A stretch of DNA of 64,000 nt from a virus. Shown here one piece after another: positions 34,527 through 42,500 of the stretch (position 1 is the stretch's first letter; each line of letters begins with the position of its first letter). The notes below the pieces were generated by a model, which was given only the letters and a program-made list of their open reading frames with translations, made no database searches and had not been told where the DNA came from. The stretch is taken from IMG/VR virus record IMGVR_UViG_3300049460_000134, positions 51,556 to 115,555 of that record; one strand, 5' to 3'. A program made the position numbers and the translations under genes.

Positions 34527-34964
34527 ATGATTGACCAGGCGAAATACGACAAAGAGCTCGAGGAATGGCTCGAGAATACACCGACCTTGGCTCACGAGCG
34601 CCGCGCACTCGATAAGCTTAGAGCTGCCTACCAGGCGGTATTAAGCGATCCGCGGTTCAAACTCTCCCCTTGGCTTGCAAATGTGGTCCGCAGCGACGCC
34701 AATAACTATCTGTGGCTCGATATTCGCACGCATGCCTGGAACGAGAACGACGATGCGCAGTGGGTGATGAACTACGACCTTGGGCTCGGCGCCTATTTTC
34801 AATGGGTGAGAAACGACCAGGACCACCAAGTGGTGCGCAGCCGGATCGACGAGAAGGACGTAATCGACCTCGCCATTCAGTTCTGCCTGAAAGCGCTGGA
34901 GAAAGGATGGCTACCGCCACGGTCCTTGACAGGCCAGGCCACGGCACCACTCACAGGCGATTAA
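34527..34964 (+). CDS. Hypothetical protein
   Basis: 145 residues; helical start, Trp-rich middle (NYLWLDIRTHAWNENDDAQWVM). GAGGGAG precedes ATG. Not recognised. Last gene before a kilobase of non-coding DNA. Confidence 0.66.
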   Translation: MIDQAKYDKELEEWLENTPTLAHERRALDKLRAAYQAVLSDPRFKLSPWLANVVRSDANNYLWLDIRTHAWNENDDAQWVMNYDLGLGAYFQWVRNDQDHQVVRSRIDEKDVIDLAIQFCLKALEKGWLPPRSLTGQATAPLTGD

Positions 34965-35550
34965 CAGCCAATCTCCACAACCTCATCCGCTTAACATTAG
35001 ACCGCCCTAATGTTAACTCGAAACCGCGCAGTTAACATCCAATCGTTTAGTGAACATCGCGCCATGCTTAATAGTTTAACCTTAGTTTAACACTAACTTA
35101 CCCTCAAATGACCGAAATCGAATTTTTCCCTCGAATGTTAAACTCCCCAGAGCACAACCTGCTGACAACGGAATCGCTATAGAAGCTCACACAATCGATC
35201 CGCTCACGTCTAACGATACAGACAGCGCTCTCTATAGCGGATGAAGCTCAGCAACGCTCTCAGCGTCAAACAGCACACAGGTCTCGTCGTATCTAAACGC
35301 TATAGAAACCAGTGCAGAAAACATTCACAGCAACACCGGCTAGAAACAGCTCAATCCATAGAGAGACAGCGACCAGCATAGAGAGCCAATAGACCTAGAG
35401 AGAGGCTATAGAGCACATAAGCGCATAGCGGGGAGAGAGCATAGAGAGGTCCGCGGTATAGAGAGGGAGCTATTGCAAAGAGTCGATGGTGGAAATGCGT
35501 CGGCGCCGATCCTGTCTCGCCAGCCCAATCCACGCCTCGCCTCACCCATC
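34965..35550. other. Possible replication origin: AT-rich segment with iterated CTATAGAG repeats
   Basis: No gene. 34990-35155 is much richer in A/T than its surroundings and has several GTTAA/TTAAC motifs. 35170-35470 carries at least eight copies of CTATAG or CATAGAG words (35178, 35231, 35301, 35357, 35378, 35392, 35437, 35457) on both strands. An AT-rich stretch next to iterons is typical of origins, but no initiator gene is adjacent. Confidence 0.4.
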
Positions 35551-35671
35551 CTGTGCACAGCCGACTTAACCCTTTCGCAACCCGACGCGCGACGCGCTAC
35601 TGTCATTCTGTGACGAGCAGGTGCTCACACGCAGCGAATGATCTGGGGCTGGGGCATTGGATCATCACCTT

Positions 35672-35706
35672 AGAGGCGGTCTTCACAGGATCGCCTCTCT
35701 TTTTGA
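35672..35706 (+). terminator. Rho-independent terminator
   Basis: AGAGGCG pairs with CGCCTCT around a 13-base loop, followed by CTTTTTG. No gene was recognised just upstream, so it may end a non-coding transcript. Confidence 0.7.
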
Positions 35707-35891
35707 CCTCCAGGAAAATAGGAACCACGCCAACTCGCCGTCGCAGACGCCAAACCGTAGGGTGCTCCTAATTGCGGACGTGCCTGATGAGCCGGACCTT
35801 AGCCTCTCTATAGCCGCGGCATGCCACCTTAAGCCGGAGTGATCCTAGGATGACCGAGGCGTGCCTTGGAAATCCTCGGCGAGACCTTCTT

Positions 35892-35963
35892 TCCGAGTCC
35901 GTGTTCTCACTAATATAATCTTCTTATCTACGTATTATCTATTAGTGAGAACATGGCTCCGGA
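35892..35963. repeat. Long inverted repeat, copy 1
   Basis: About 24-base arms (core TGTTCTCACTAATA / TATTAGTGAGAACA) around a 24-base AT-rich spacer; outer part TCCG-AGTCCG pairs imperfectly with CATGGCTCCGGA. A second copy is at 50221. It lies in non-coding DNA 150 bases before the next gene. Confidence 0.75.
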
Positions 35964-36110
35964 TATGTCCGGAATGTGTCCGTGGCTCTCCATACGCCGG
36001 AACGAGCCTAAACGTGCCGTGAAAAGCCGATTTCTATCCTAAAATCAAAGACTTATGTTCTTCTCATCGAAAGCGAGCGCACTCGAAGCGCGTCACAGAG
36101 GAGAAAGAGC

Positions 36111-36791
36111 ATGCAGTCCACGTCCAACCAGGCACCGGCCACGTCCAAGAAGATAGAGGCCTACGACTTCAAGCAGGCGGCACAGAGCCATACATCTGAC
36201 GAGTTGGCGGCGTTTGCCTTGCGTGTCGAGCAGGCGTTCACCGCAAGAGCGCAGTTCGAGCTCGACCAGACGAGCAACGCCGACGAGCCGATCCAGAAGA
36301 AGCTCGCCACCGCACGCAAGTCCTTCTCTATGCCGGACACACTGCGCGGCATGATCGAACTCAACCTCGATCCGGAGTTCATCAACGGCACGCTCTCCAA
36401 AGACGGCAAAGGCAAGCGCCTGAACGTCTATGCCATCAAGAAGGCGCAGCAGATCGTGGACTTCATGCTCGGCAAGGACAAGCTGCCGGAGGTGCTGATC
36501 GCCTGCCTCAAGTCGATGGTGGCATTCAAGGCGGCCGGCGAGAAGTTCACGGCAGAGTTTTCCAAGGCTGCAGTCTCAGACAAGATCAGGCTCGCGCCAT
36601 CTGCCGGCCTTAAGCTCCTTGTCAGGCACAACGTCGATAAGGCTACCGCCTCGACGCAGGCAAGTAGTAATATGCGCATTCTGCAGGCTCTTGGTCTGGT
36701 GAAGAACGTAGGCAGTGCACGCTCCGGTGTGTATGAGCTGACGGATACAAAGCAGGCGGTAGCGCTTGTGGATCTTCTGAGGTCAGCCTAG
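36111..36791 (+). CDS. Hypothetical protein, GC-rich member of a two-gene family
   Basis: 226 residues. The C-terminal half (LKSMVAFKAAGEKFT, then SNMRILQALGLVKN and a final Y-x-L...ALVDLLRSA) aligns by eye with the protein at 38916. The end reads like a winged helix. AGAGGAGAAAGAGC precedes ATG. It is alone between non-coding DNA and a strong terminator. Function unknown. Confidence 0.72.
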   Translation: MQSTSNQAPATSKKIEAYDFKQAAQSHTSDELAAFALRVEQAFTARAQFELDQTSNADEPIQKKLATARKSFSMPDTLRGMIELNLDPEFINGTLSKDGKGKRLNVYAIKKAQQIVDFMLGKDKLPEVLIACLKSMVAFKAAGEKFTAEFSKAAVSDKIRLAPSAGLKLLVRHNVDKATASTQASSNMRILQALGLVKNVGSARSGVYELTDTKQAVALVDLLRSA

Positions 36792-36824
36792 GCCTCGCCG
36801 GCTAGGCGAAACTGCAGAGGGGAA

Positions 36825-36865
36825 GAGGCGGTAGGCACCCAAACCTACCGCCTCGCTTTGTTTTG
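36825..36865 (+). terminator. Rho-independent terminator
   Basis: An 11-bp perfect stem GAGGCGGTAGG / CCTACCGCCTC with an 8-base loop, followed by GCTTTGTTTTG. Confidence 0.88.
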
Positions 36866-37113
36866 GCTATAGAGAGACCAAGGATATCCGTGGCAGCGGC
36901 CATTAGGAACCGGTGGGGTCCAAGGGACCGGCCGCTAGAAACCACGCATGTCCGCTCCAGGTGTAGGGGAAGGATTGGGTTGATGCCGCGGCGATCCTAG
37001 GCGATCCGTGGCAGGCCGCGGCAAACCTTGGCTGAGGCATCGCCTCCCCTCTCCTATCCGTGCCTCGCCGGAGTGATCCAGAGATTGCCGATTGCATGCC
37101 TCTCTCTATCATC

Positions 37114-37134
37114 GTATCAGTAATTATTGACTGA
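37114..37134 (+). promoter_or_regulatory. Operator copy
   Basis: TATCAGTAATTATTGACTGAC, 17 bases before ATG 37153. The 250 bases upstream hold no gene but many ATCC, CCGTGGC and CCTTGG words. Confidence 0.58.
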
Positions 37135-37152
37135 CAAACACAAGAGAGACAC

Positions 37153-37485
37153 ATGAAGATCATTACTGAAGCCGAACTGACGAGCGCTATCGAAGACTGC
37201 CTGTGCGAAGTGTTTGAGCTCGTCGTAGGCCAGCGCGCATATCTCGAAGTGCTCACGAATGAGACGGACTACGTCGGCACGCTCATCGAGTATGAGACGG
37301 ACCTTGGCTTTCACAACGCGACAAACGTCTTCGATCTGGACCTAGAGACGCGCAAGTATGCCTTTGAGCGCGCAGTGACTGCCGGCGATGCGAAACAGTC
37401 GTTCTTTGCATATGACAGCCTATCTGATGCGAAAGCACACGCCACGGCGCTGCTATTCGCAAAGCTCGACGGCTACGAAGAATAG
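37153..37485 (+). CDS. Hypothetical acidic protein
   Basis: 110 residues, alpha/beta, not recognised. Leader ACACAAGAGAGACAC. Single-gene unit. Confidence 0.68.
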   Translation: MKIITEAELTSAIEDCLCEVFELVVGQRAYLEVLTNETDYVGTLIEYETDLGFHNATNVFDLDLETRKYAFERAVTAGDAKQSFFAYDSLSDAKAHATALLFAKLDGYEE

Positions 37486-37673
37486 GCCATAGCGAGCGTC
37501 GCTGACCGCGGCGCTTTCATTTGGCTTGTCGAGTGCCGTGGCGATCCTTGGAACCCGCCGAGGGGCAGTCCACGCCACACCAGGCCGGTCCAGTCCTCAT
37601 CCGGCCAGGCCAGGTCCACGGCACGTCAGGCCGCCTCACCCTGCAAGACCCCTGCAATGCCGATTTGATCGCC

Positions 37674-37707
37674 TTTAGCGACTTCGCTAAAACAATAATT
37701 AGCGAAA
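37674..37707. promoter_or_regulatory. Second-type palindrome, first copy
   Basis: TTTAGCGACTTCGCTAAA (37674-37691) and half-site TTAGCGAAA (37699). This is the leftmost member of the motif group that runs to 49.06 kb. It replaces the first-type operator in front of the gene at 37728. Confidence 0.6.
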
Positions 37708-37727
37708 CACGAAAGAGAGACACGCGC

Positions 37728-38051
37728 ATGACCAACGAACTCGTAAAGACCGCCGCCATTGCTCTGCTCAATCATCTGTCCACGATGAACGATGATGCCT
37801 TTGAGCGCGTCGATACCGACTACATCGACTATTCGCCTGACGCGCACTTCACAGTCGCCTTGTTCGACGCGATCGAGCCAGCCAAAGACCGCAACTACTT
37901 CGACATGATTACCGAGTTCACCTACGAGCTCGCCAGTGTCACCAAGAGCGATGACGATCGTGCCGACGTCGATCGCTTCTGCACCAAGCTCTTCTCCGCC
38001 CTCCTCCGTTTCGAAATGAGCGAGAACATCCAGAGTCTCGACGCCTCATAG
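37728..38051 (+). CDS. Hypothetical acidic protein
   Basis: 107 residues, helical, acidic, not recognised. ATG 37728 follows AAAGAGAGACACGCGC, the same leader type as 37153. Preceded by the second-type palindrome. Confidence 0.66.
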   Translation: MTNELVKTAAIALLNHLSTMNDDAFERVDTDYIDYSPDAHFTVALFDAIEPAKDRNYFDMITEFTYELASVTKSDDDRADVDRFCTKLFSALLRFEMSENIQSLDAS

Positions 38052-38076
38052 CGCCGACAACATCCATTTGAACGCC

Positions 38077-38094
38077 TTTAGCGAATTCGCTAAA
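38077..38094. promoter_or_regulatory. Second-type palindrome, perfect 18-mer
   Basis: TTTAGCGAATTCGCTAAA, a perfect palindrome, 34 bases before the next gene. Best copy in the window. Confidence 0.65.
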
Positions 38095-38127
38095 TATTTA
38101 AGTGTCAACAACGTGAGAGCGAGACAC

Positions 38128-38298
38128 ATGCAAACGATCATTCCAGCGCCGACCGTCAGATACCACATAAAAGAAATGACGCCGCGCCAGTCGAACTTCG
38201 CAAGCCAAGCCCTGTCGCTTGCCAAGGAGACTGCCGCCTTCATTGCCTTTATCGTCTTCGTCTGTGCTGTCATCGCCGTGTGCGTGATAATCCACTAA
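38128..38298 (+). CDS. Small membrane protein
   Basis: 56 residues with a C-terminal transmembrane helix (AFIAFIVFVCAVIAVCVIIH) and a basic cytoplasmic start. Tail-anchored layout. Leader GAGAGCGAGACAC as for its neighbours. Confidence 0.62.
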   Translation: MQTIIPAPTVRYHIKEMTPRQSNFASQALSLAKETAAFIAFIVFVCAVIAVCVIIH

Positions 38299-38304
38299 GT
38301 CGAG

Positions 38305-38347
38305 AGCCAGGTCCGGACACCGCCATGTCACCGGACCTGGCTTTTTC
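38305..38347 (+). terminator. Rho-independent terminator
   Basis: AGCCAGGTCCGG pairs with CCGGACCTGGCT, followed by TTTTC. Confidence 0.88.
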
Positions 38348-38609
38348 ATTGCCTGAAACCATGGCATGCCACGGTTGCCAAAATCAGGAACCGAGGCTAT
38401 TCGTGCCAAGGGGATCCAGTCCGGCGAGTCCCGCTGGCGATGCCTGTCAATATATGAGCGCTCGCTACATCGCTCGACGCTTCATTAGTCGATGCTACAT
38501 TACGCGCTGCTGCATTAGTCGACGCTTCGAAAGCGCACGCTCTCACACCTCTTGCTCAATTAGCGCATGCTCACAGACACGCGCTCGCGAGCCTGTCCGT
38601 TTCCGCACC
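38348..38609. repeat. Non-coding region with imperfect tandem repeat
   Basis: No gene. CATTAGTCGA occurs at 38483 and 38513 within an imperfect 30-base repeat (CGACGCTTCATTAGTCGATG and relatives). From 38444 on it shares the GG/CC poverty of the island to its right. Confidence 0.5.
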
Positions 38610-38648
38610 AAAAACAAAGAAAAGCACACGCTTGTTTAGCGTGTGCTT
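38610..38648 (-). terminator. Terminator for the minus-strand island
   Basis: AAGCACACGC pairs with GCGTGTGCTT; read on the minus strand it is followed by TTCTTTGTTTTT. Confidence 0.8.
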
Positions 38649-38666
38649 GTATCTGCTTTTGCTGTT

Positions 38667-38846
38667 TTATTCAGCGCTCATGCGCTCGCGTTCTGTGGTG
38701 CGCACATAGTCGCGCATGTCGAAATACTCGCTTTCATAGTCGCGCTCTAACAGCGCAACGTCTGAGGTGTTAGCAAACGACATGCTAAGCGCTTGTCTGA
38801 AGTTGTCGCGCTCGCGACGCTCTTTCTTTGTCATGTGTATGCGCAT
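38667..38846 (-). CDS. Hypothetical small charged protein in the GG/CC desert
   Basis: 59 residues from ATG 38846, ten bases after GAGAG; ATG 38834 is an alternative. Sequence is almost only charged and small residues (TKKERRERDNFRQALSMSF, then LLERDYESEYFDMRDYV) and lacks Gly, Pro and Trp. Helical by pattern. Ends before the minus-strand terminator. Function unknown. Confidence 0.6.
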   Translation of the reverse strand: MRIHMTKKERRERDNFRQALSMSFANTSDVALLERDYESEYFDMRDYVRTTERERMSAE

Positions 38847-38875
38847 TATCTAAATCTCTCGTTGGTGTTTCGTGT

Positions 38876-38903
38876 GAGTGTCAGTCAATTAAGACTGACA
38901 CTC
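38876..38903 (-). promoter_or_regulatory. Longest operator palindrome
   Basis: GAGTGTCAGTC / GACTGACACTC arms of 11 bases around AATTAA: the longest perfect arms of the first palindrome type, between the two minus-strand genes. Confidence 0.65.
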
Positions 38904-38915
38904 GTTTCTGTGGTG

Positions 38916-39500
38916 TTACGCGCTCAGCTTCGCTTCAATGAGCGCAAAGATTGCGTTGTTGTTGACTGCATATTCAGTCTTGTTTTTCTGCTCAATCAGA
39001 TTGAGCGCATGCAGTGCGCGCATGCTCATGTTTGCATGTCGTGCATAGTTCGCGAATTGCGTGCGACGCTGATAGATGAGCGCTTTTTTGGTGTCGTCGA
39101 TTTTCGCGCTCGCGTTCAAGCTGTCTTCAATGTCGCGCACAGTGAAGTTTACATTAGCGTTCTTGAAGTTAACAAGCGTGCGCAACACTTCTTCGAGATT
39201 GCTCTTGAGGTGTTTTACATCGTCGCGCGTTGCGAACTTGAGCAAGCTATCAACACTGTTGATTGCTTTCATGCACATATACTTATTTTCGACGCGCTTG
39301 TCGTGCGAAAACACCTCAGAAACGTTGCTCTTCTTGAGCAACGCAGCAACGCTTTTCTGCGATACTGTGAGCGTTACATCAGTGATGAACTTGAGCGATG
39401 CAGCGCATGCACCATTTTTCAGTTCATCGTCATAGCGCTTGTTCAAATCTGCAGCGTATGCGTTGATCTTGACTTCGTTGTTCTTCGTTACTTCAGTCAT
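38916..39500 (-). CDS. Hypothetical protein in the GG/CC desert, paralogue of 36111
   Basis: 194 residues with one Gly, no Pro, no Trp; Arg is coded CGC or CGT without AGG or CGG. The C-terminal half (LRTLVNFKNANVNFT, NMSMRALHALNLIEQ, then YAVNNNAIFALIEAKLS) aligns by eye with the GC-rich protein at 36111. Helical, ending like a winged helix. Operators lie both before it and after it. Confidence 0.75.
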   Translation of the reverse strand: MTEVTKNNEVKINAYAADLNKRYDDELKNGACAASLKFITDVTLTVSQKSVAALLKKSNVSEVFSHDKRVENKYMCMKAINSVDSLLKFATRDDVKHLKSNLEEVLRTLVNFKNANVNFTVRDIEDSLNASAKIDDTKKALIYQRRTQFANYARHANMSMRALHALNLIEQKNKTEYAVNNNAIFALIEAKLSA

Positions 39501-39987
39501 TTGCTTGTCTTTCTTTCGTTGTGCTGTTTAATCAGCGTTGTTAACATGTTCACTAAACACTTATTCGCAAAAACAGTCAAGCGTATCAGTCAAAAATAAC
39601 TGACATTTTGCGAAAATAATTCGATGCACTCTATTTGACACATAGACGCGCACTGACGCGCGTTGTGTGTCGTGCGCTGTCATCTATCGTTTTTGTGCGT
39701 CGCTGCATCCCTCGTGCAACGTCGTGACAATGCGCGCGTGATTGATTCTCTAGTGTCGCGTGACAGTGTTGCTAGCGTGAGTTTTCGAGGTGAAAGCGAA
39801 GTCTTAGAAAAAAGTGCGTCGCTCGAAAGGGATGCCTCCTGCTGCGCCGACACTTCCCGGCTCGGACTACCTGTCCTCATTCCCGGCCTGGACGGACAGC
39901 ATAGGTGCGGTATGCCGAGGCCCCTCCCCTGCTCTCCCCTCTACCAGACCGCCCAGATTCCCGGATCCCGGACTACCTATCCTTATG
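39501..39987. other. Non-coding region between divergent units
   Basis: No gene seen. Left part (to about 39828) continues the GG/CC poverty with one TCCC exception at 39709; right part switches abruptly to GG/CC-rich words (CCCGGCTCGGACTACC and CCCGGACTACC, 39852 and 39966). Confidence 0.5.
39585..39605 (-). promoter_or_regulatory. Operator copy for the minus-strand island
   Basis: TATCAGTCAAAAATAACTGAC, 85 bases upstream of the 39500 start. Confidence 0.5.
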
Positions 39988-41110: not shown

Positions 41111-41395
41111 ATGACGGACACCGTCAAAGGACTGCCCATAAAGGGCTACAAGAACGAGCAGCCGATCCACCTGGTCGAGCTGGTCAACGAGAACAAGGTT
41201 CTCGAGGAAATGGTTCTGCGCCAGATCGACCGGCACGTCGCACTCGGCGCCGAGGTCAATGGTCGTGACGTGCAGATGGCTCGTGGTCTGATCGAGGATG
41301 CGTTCATGCGCCTCAACCGCGGCGTATTCCAGCCGCAACGTCTCGAAGGCGAGCTCGGCGGGGCTGTCCTTGCTGATATGCTGGGAGCTGCCTGA
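41111..41395 (+). CDS. Acb2/Tad1-like cyclic-nucleotide sponge (candidate)
   Basis: 94 residues. IKGYKNE near residue 10, a long helix with LVNENKVLEEMVLRQID, then DVQMARGLIEDAFMRLNRGVFQP match the helical-hairpin pattern (I-x-GY ... AR-x-x-IE-x-xFM-x-LNR-x-V-x-QP) I recall for Acb2-type anti-CBASS proteins. These sequester signalling nucleotides as hexamers. The assignment rests on motif memory; a plain structural role is possible. Confidence 0.55.
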   Translation: MTDTVKGLPIKGYKNEQPIHLVELVNENKVLEEMVLRQIDRHVALGAEVNGRDVQMARGLIEDAFMRLNRGVFQPQRLEGELGGAVLADMLGAA

Positions 41396-41580: not shown

Positions 41581-41859
41581 TTTCTGCGTCTTCTTCCAGG
41601 CCGCGAAGCACTCCTCGAGGAGTTCCTTCATCGACATGCCTCTCGCGGTCGCGGTCATCTTGAACTCCCGGCTGAATGCGCCGTCCACCTTGAAGTTCAG
41701 ATCTTTGTAGATCTTCTTGACCTTCATGTTGTCGGCCACGAATGGCGTCTCGGCGGTATCGGCGATCGTCGCCAGCAGCTTGAACTCGTCGGCCTTCTTG
41801 CTTGGCGGCTTGCCTACCGGTGCCTTGGTAGCTGCCGTTTCAACTGGTGCCTTTGTCAT
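41578..41859 (-). CDS. Ribbon-helix-helix partition partner (ParG-like)
   Basis: 93 residues. An unstructured, basic N-terminal half is followed by LNFKVDGAFSREFKMTATARGMSMKELLEECF (in parts: beta strand NFKVD, then two helices), the layout of ParG-type centromere-binding proteins. It overlaps the parA stop (ATGA). DNA target is probably the second palindrome; that is inference. Confidence 0.72.
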   Translation of the reverse strand: MTKAPVETAATKAPVGKPPSKKADEFKLLATIADTAETPFVADNMKVKKIYKDLNFKVDGAFSREFKMTATARGMSMKELLEECFAAWKKTQK

Positions 41860-42500
41860 GCTGCTTCCTCCGCGGCCTGGTTGATCCTGGTGACGATCTC
41901 GCTGGCGAGAGCCTCAGCGCGCTCGTTGAGCGACGGATACTTGGTCTCGGAGATCGCAAAGCCGGTGTTTTGAGCGGACTGATACCCTGCCCTGGTGCCT
42001 AGATCGGTATCGGCGACGTCGAAGCCCTGCTTCTTGATGAGCGCTGCTGCCTCGCGAACCGCGGCCTCACTGTCGGCCGTCTTGTTGAGGACGAAGAAGA
42101 TCTTGTCTCGGCTGACGCCTTTGGCCGCGAGCTCCTGGGCAAAGCCAAGCTGCGGCTTCAGATCGTCCACGGTCACGCCGGTCGGCACGATGACTTGGTC
42201 GGCGACCAGGGCAGCCTCGAGCGAGGTCTGAACAGAGTCCGGCGCGCCATCGACGATCAGGCAGTCGGCCGTCTCATTCTTCAGCTTCTTGACCGAGTTG
42301 AACGGCTGCGCCTCGATCTCCGGCTGGATCACACCGCGGATGCGTGCCGCCACCCAATCAACCGAAGTGAGCTGGTTGGTGTTGAAGTCGCAGATCTTCA
42401 CCGACCACTCAGCCGATGCGTAGGTTCTAGCCATCAGCCGAGCGAGCGTGGACTTGCCGACGCCGCCTTTCTGGGACAGGCACGCGATTATCAGGGTCAT
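41856..42500 (-). CDS. parA: ParA-family partition ATPase (ParF-like)
   Basis: 214 residues, the size of small type Ib ParA/ParF proteins without an N-terminal HTH. Deviant Walker A SQKGGVGKSTLA at residues 9-20, Walker A' DFNTNQLTSVDW, and DCLIVDGAPD for Walker B. Its product with the RHH protein should position DNA at cell division or act on phage DNA placement. Strong second-type palindromes lie right before its start. Confidence 0.85.
   Translation of the reverse strand: MTLIIACLSQKGGVGKSTLARLMARTYASAEWSVKICDFNTNQLTSVDWVAARIRGVIQPEIEAQPFNSVKKLKNETADCLIVDGAPDSVQTSLEAALVADQVIVPTGVTVDDLKPQLGFAQELAAKGVSRDKIFFVLNKTADSEAAVREAAALIKKQGFDVADTDLGTRAGYQSAQNTGFAISETKYPSLNERAEALASEIVTRINQAAEEAA

Follow-up and report, generated by a model that had tools for sequence, protein, structure and literature searches.

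A kilobase-scale zone nearly free of GG and CC, anchored at a directional element in Rhizobium phages and plasmid prophages

The locus

The DNA analysed here, referred to as the window, is a stretch of 64,000 nucleotides corresponding to bases 51556-115555 of a virus record of 115,555 bp (115.6 kb). The relatives of this phage include the Rhizobium phages RHEph10, RHph_Y2_11, N1_15 and N1_10, more distantly B1VFA, X66 and V1VFA-S, and the plasmid prophages pLM21S1, Pararhizobium p5 and R. beringeri pRlX6. RHEph10 and pLM21S1 are archetypes of plasmid-like prophages, the latter with a RepC-like replication system (PMC4447125). Most genes of RHph_Y2_11 are annotated as hypothetical.

The GG/CC-free zone spans positions 38612-39796 of the window, and its exceptions are GGTG/CACC sites and a single conserved CCC. 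All oriented features within it lie on the minus strand. Its sharp 5' edge is formed by TCTAAGACTTCG (39797-39808, minus strand), of which this is the sole exact copy in the genome, and exactly 22 nt from it lies GGCATC (39831-39836, minus strand). Inside the zone are found, in the direction of reading, a leader site GAGGGAT (39707-39713), which in RHEph10-like lineages retains the only GGG of the zone's upstream part; a putative sigma70-like promoter TTGACT-N17-TTTAGT (39552-39580), recognized by eye, with counterparts in relatives, and not returned by a consensus promoter scan; gene 1 (38916-39500, 194 aa); gene 2 (38667-38846, 59 aa); and an intrinsic terminator, AAGCACACGCTAAACAAGCGTGTGCTT with a T-rich stretch (38622-38648), whose stem is itself free of GG and CC. 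On the left side the zone tapers beyond the terminator to approximately 38440, and this tail holds degenerate 15-bp quasi-repeats (38464-38538). Both the leader upstream of the promoter and the tail beyond the terminator follow the GG/CC rule. Nothing near the zone scored above the Rfam gathering scores.

As the original prediction had claimed, the two zone proteins have an unusual composition: one glycine, located in the gene 1 product, and neither proline nor tryptophan in either. Given that substitutions between relatives concentrate in the third codon positions of the 194-aa frame, it is a real gene. Long antisense open frames occur in several zones, and the published annotation of RHEph10 gp148 (L011, 4965-5645) is a frame antisense to the conserved zone gene. 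Searches against Pfam and PHROGs yielded only weak matches for gene 1, and no significant fold match to the PDB was obtained for the zone proteins. A distant paralogue of gene 1, here called family B, is located outside the zone at 36111-36791 (plus strand) and is ordinary in composition, with 42 GG and 10 glycines. The original prediction had already proposed this relationship, which is not visible by BLASTP and emerges in profile-to-profile comparison (hhalign E=7e-9). Both families, gene 1 and family B, are predicted to encode winged-helix proteins.

Depletion of GG and CC

In positions 38612-39705 (1,094 nt, GC 46%), GG occurs six times against 58.5 expected and CC twice against 57.1 expected (about 116 in total), which confirms the near-absence reported originally. 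The Poisson probability is approximately 5e-39, or 6e-26 when the expectation is scaled by the odds ratio that GG/CC has locally, about 0.72. From 39705 the zone extends to the conserved element at 39797-39808, and its breaks there are the conserved CCC (39709-39711) and one CACC. All eight exceptions in the maximum-scoring block of 1,099 bp are GGTG/CACC, again in agreement with what had been claimed. The odds ratios proposed as a check range from approximately 0.5 to 1.0 per 500 bases in the rest of the window, and by this measure no second stretch as GG/CC-poor as the zone exists elsewhere in the 64 kb. In the dinucleotide tally of the zone, GG and CC alone are near zero, and GC and CG are enriched.

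The codon-level null, also proposed originally, gives a similar answer. With the protein held constant and the codon usage of RHph_Y2_11, the larger gene is expected to contain 17 GG and 33 CC, whereas two of each were found; among the tested records, same-protein nulls for gene 1 yield GG z values of -4.6 to -7.7. These results support the earlier view that it is a GG context that is avoided, on either strand and whether or not the DNA is coding, rather than a composition being biased. The effect is larger than was reported then, when conservation among relatives, the edge element and the orientation switch of record L064 (see below) had not been considered.

Conservation among relatives

The syntenic zone is equally poor in GG and CC in 21 records, with CC partly back in two of them and identities of the gene 1 proteins as low as 24-25%, and its length in relatives is about 0.7-1.4 kb. 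No GG or CC occurs in the zones of V1VFA-S (135 expected) and pLM21S1 (139 expected), nor in a block of 1,348 bp in L020, where 140 would be expected. Relatives with a gene 1 protein of just 45%, or 24-27%, identity still have a GG/CC-free locus, over 0.75-1.4 kb. Pairwise comparison of relatives reveals 37-63 synonymously different codons in gene 1, with hardly a difference among them creating GG or CC. Given such an amount of synonymous change, the rule is being maintained rather than being an inherited accident. In a R. beringeri plasmid (L039, pRlX6), gene 1 of the zone is frameshifted, yet the zone has no more than one GG/CC exception. No relatives were found in bacterial genome contigs by the patterns used.

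The anchoring element

The zone of each record begins at GG(C/T)ATC-N22-TCTAAGACTTCG, with an invariant spacing of 22 nt. Among the 21 protein-defined records, TCTAAGACTTCG is unchanged in 20, L036 having one change in the last base, and GGCATC is present at 22 nt in 20, L037 having GGTATC. The exact element occurs once each in the window genome and in RHph_Y2_11. A 67-nt query from B1VFA gave one strong match in each of the closer relatives, being too diverged to reach L020 or RHph_Y2_11. Hence, wherever it was checked, the site is single-copy per genome, a trait of iteron-type origins.

When 2.9 million viral contigs were scanned for the element in its exact GGCATC form only, 16 stretches were obtained, including four (L054, L057, L062 and L064) that had escaped the protein searches. 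The zone is present in all of these four, as the element predicts, with observed over expected GG+CC counts of 3/103, 24/85, 6/130 and 0/107, respectively. Since these records were picked by the element alone, they constitute an independent test of the anchor, yet they belong to the same broad phage group. Considering fixed windows of 700 nt in the resulting 25 records (21 protein-defined and four element-found), GG+CC amounts to 113 against 1945 expected downstream of the element and to 2569 against 2919 expected upstream of it; all 25 records have a GG-normal flank on the upstream side. The zone is thus anchored at a single-copy, directional element.

Independence of gene content and direction

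In RHEph10-like phages, gene 2 belongs to a family of 59-64 aa. In L017 and L038 its place is taken by genes that appear to belong to other families and are themselves free of GG and CC; in V1VFA-S and pLM21S1 the second zone gene is an apparently unrelated one. All of these second genes lack glycine, proline and tryptophan. In L064, where the 790-bp zone has neither GG nor CC, the resident is a gene of 199 aa encoded on the other strand, without glycine, proline or tryptophan, which belongs to the 36111 family (hhalign to family B E=1.7e-16). The same family is therefore GG-normal at 36111 and GG-free inside the L064 zone, i.e., it exists in both states according to location. The rule is positional and holds for any resident genes, and L064, a single record, shows that the zone is independent of gene direction.

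Taken together with the lineage-specific exceptions described below, the positional rule and the strand of the L064 gene make a foreign origin, codon bias or a plain mRNA-level cause unlikely. The original prediction had offered descent from a GG-avoiding genome as one source of the zone; foreign DNA of this kind is rejected, given that the zone lies beside GG-normal DNA in all 25 records. Its suggestion of avoiding an NGG-type PAM fits badly, as such avoidance would protect only about 1% of each phage and the zone goes together with a single phage element. Neither codon bias nor expression is accepted as the sole cause, because the same-protein nulls fail and the non-coding parts obey the rule. 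An assembly artefact is rejected due to the agreement of isolates, plasmids and metagenomes, and avoidance of other short words or of Z-DNA-type alternation is rejected since GG and CC alone are near zero.

Forbidden words and strand asymmetry

The ban acts at the level of bases: GGA, GGC, GGG and their complements are excluded, and GGT is tolerated in some lineages. In L057, 22 of the 24 exceptions are GGT/ACC, compared with 22% in its flanks, which indicates that the banned words there are GGA, GGC and GGG (GGV/BCC). Along with the eight GGTG/CACC sites of the window block, this bears out a tolerance of GGT(G). In the window lineage nearly every tolerated site reads [AT]GGTG, and most of them sit in T[CT]TG[AT]GGTGT-like contexts; loosely defined, this consensus occurs 41 times in 115 kb, seven of them within the 1.2-kb zone. 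In most other lineages GGT is nearly absent too. The single steady exception in RHEph10-like phages is the leader GGGAT (CCC at 39709-39711 of the window); the GGG site is inverted in L023, L037 and L062. Elsewhere in the genomes GG contexts are ordinary. The lineage-shifting context of the exceptions suggests a phage-encoded reader of GG.

A strand-dependent effect exists as a second component besides the double-stranded ban. On the gene strand of L031 and L035, CC is back to 10 and 28 occurrences, while GG is still at 0 and 2. In the window, two small plus-strand genes at 37728-38051 and 38128-38298 have 0 and 1 sense GG against 9.7 and 5.9 expected, with normal CC. Milder sense-GG depletion is found in their counterparts in relatives and in other genes, including ssb and capsid, so sense-strand GG depletion may be partly translational. 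An RNA-level rule, as first inferred from the asymmetry in L031 and L035, is weakened by L064: most records avoid GG on both strands, and the gene orientation is opposite in L064, neither of which agrees with a rule on the sense strand only.

Possible explanations

What is observed is a zone of about 0.7-1.4 kb, nearly without GG and CC on both strands, whatever its genes or their reading direction. We consider it moderately probable that it represents a new type of cis element, i.e., a kilobase domain defined by an absent di- or trinucleotide, anchored at a directional element, enforced by a phage-encoded GG-reading agent, and dictating the amino acid repertoire of the resident genes. As to its function, our preference, a tentative one, is for a directional, origin-like zone that lacks the triplets at which the phage primase starts. 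From the element a DNA transaction of the phage would proceed in one direction; lytic DNA replication is the most likely candidate, and the replication start would adjoin a winged-helix initiator-type gene. The zone would be kept clear of start triplets for the DnaG-type primase of the phage replisome; with no primer in the first kilobase, priming would begin only outside the zone. The proteins free of glycine, proline and tryptophan would be by-products of this cis rule.

Several results count in favour of an origin-like zone: the anchoring and the directional counts (113/1945 against 2569/2919), the presence of the zone in the four element-found records, the single copy of the element, the strand of the L064 gene, the two states of family B inside and outside the zone, the obedience of the non-coding leader and tail, and the predicted winged-helix proteins. 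A primase would be expected to produce a rule on triplets that is relaxed differently from one lineage to another, as in the GGT exceptions of L057. DnaG primases start at trinucleotides, those of Aquifex aeolicus and Clostridium difficile at CCC (PMC5204125), and the likeness lies in a short, C/G-rich, lineage-dependent triplet on the DNA strand. The difference is that the few papers searched describe no kilobase from which such triplets have been removed on both strands. The annotation of a close relative lists a DnaB-like helicase, a primase, Pol III alpha and SSB of its own, and the translation of this primase has a zinc-binding motif. Other results count against an origin-like zone. The zinc-domain residues of the phage primase do not align, by eye, with the lysine region of the Aquifex and C. 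difficile enzymes; GC skew makes no clear turn; the 15-bp tail repeats are degenerate compared with the near-identical direct-repeat array of an iteron-type origin; RepC is annotated as a replication protein at a different place in a close relative; and neither the CC returned in L031 and L035, nor the sense-only GG loss in the genes at 37728 and 38128, nor the lack of a significant PDB fold match is in its favour.

Among the alternatives, a somewhat unlikely one is that a phage enzyme modifies, nicks or cuts DNA at GG(V), and that the zone must stay untouched, e.g., for host RNA polymerase before or during takeover. This would suit a strict, double-stranded, triplet-like rule with lineage-specific context, and phage genes that are mostly hypothetical could include such an enzyme; however, a base-modification gene is absent from the RHph_Y2_11 annotation, GG contexts are ordinary elsewhere in the genomes, and the start at a directional element, with genes in any orientation, is left unexplained. 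Another reading, an unlikely one, has a phage protein that is loaded at the element and then advances along the DNA, either as a filament or as a translocating complex, and that GG/CC would halt; a transcriptionally or structurally distinct domain would result. Although the directional, element-anchored zone with its sharp start and tapering end would be accounted for, and both zone gene families are predicted winged-helix, zero tolerance at each site is hard to explain in this manner, and we know of no filament former that is blocked by one dinucleotide.

We regard as distinctly unlikely a rule on the transcript, by which zone RNA without GG (and CC) would evade a GG-cleaving ribonuclease or GG-reading factor acting on other mRNAs. 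The sense strand of L031 and L035, still without GG though CC has returned, the sense-only depletion in the genes at 37728 and 38128, and the inclusion of the terminator in the zone all point towards such a rule. Yet L064 has its gene on the other strand of the same element-anchored zone, the leader before the promoter and the tail past the terminator also obey, CC is banned too with exceptions that are reverse-complement symmetric, and the milder sense-GG depletion extends to ssb and capsid. Finally, a mutational origin, in which a local process such as a deaminase in a persistent R-loop strips GG and CC, is highly improbable. The defined start with a promoter-like site and the sequence context of the exceptions would be compatible with it, but the zone genes are under purifying selection with many synonymous changes and hardly any creating GG or CC, the enriched GC and CG are not deamination products, and the conserved GGG survives.

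Relation to known systems

Plasmid and phage-plasmid replicons may have the origin in or beside the initiator gene, as in RepC of repABC plasmids and P1 oriL/repL. The zone resembles such replicons in having a single-copy site and an adjacent DNA-binding gene, and in belonging to phages with a plasmid state as well (PMC4447125). These replicons are not known to ban a dinucleotide, whereas the zone bans GG and CC, and no known iteron family or initiator homology was found for it. Sequence-specific ribonucleases such as T4 RegB, which cuts GGAG, and MazF, which ACA-less genes resist, offer the parallel of motif-free genes escaping an agent that acts on the remainder; they act on RNA, however, while the zone is anchored in DNA and independent of gene orientation. 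Avoidance of restriction sites by phages likewise leaves a short sequence under-represented, but it is genome-wide and concerns sites of 4-8 bp, while the zone covers about 1% of the genome and involves 2-3 bp with near-complete depletion. The searches made retrieved no literature on a GG/CC-free phage zone, and to our knowledge no described system explains it.

If the interpretation as a cis element is correct, selection on nucleic-acid sequence would override protein composition across a whole transcription unit, despite protein divergence to about 25% identity. The agent should be findable, given that isolated phages and plasmid prophages exist and the element is known to the base. A primase-silent origin zone would provide a sequence signature for origins, while a modification or nuclease system would represent new phage chemistry or a new takeover mechanism.

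Other features near the zone

A second, weaker GG/CC-poor non-coding stretch (35171-35400) has short motifs in common with the non-coding parts of the zone. More broadly, in the non-coding stretch preceding the 36111-type gene (34960-35400 in the window, 9000-9500 in L043, 6950-7300 in RHph_Y2_11), repeat-like words adjoin a partly GG/CC-poor segment with zone motifs, possibly a second origin or a regulator array. The intergenic DNA around the zone (35500-38440 in the window, and the flanks in relatives) is the opposite of the zone, since GG/CC words abound there, CCNNGG being one example. Several phage genes are preceded by the palindrome TTAGCGAATTCGCTAA or by near copies (37675-37690, 38078-38093 and other sites), and this palindrome is probably the operator of a phage regulator. 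On the other side of the element, a 94-aa protein (41111-41392, plus strand) with an Acb2/Tad1 hairpin domain (Pfam PF24729, E=6e-10) is, judging from this domain, a candidate cyclic-nucleotide sponge against CBASS or Thoeris. At 41581-42500 (minus strand) are a ParA-like partition ATPase and a small partner gene with weak similarity to ribbon-helix-helix proteins, in keeping with a phage-plasmid life style.
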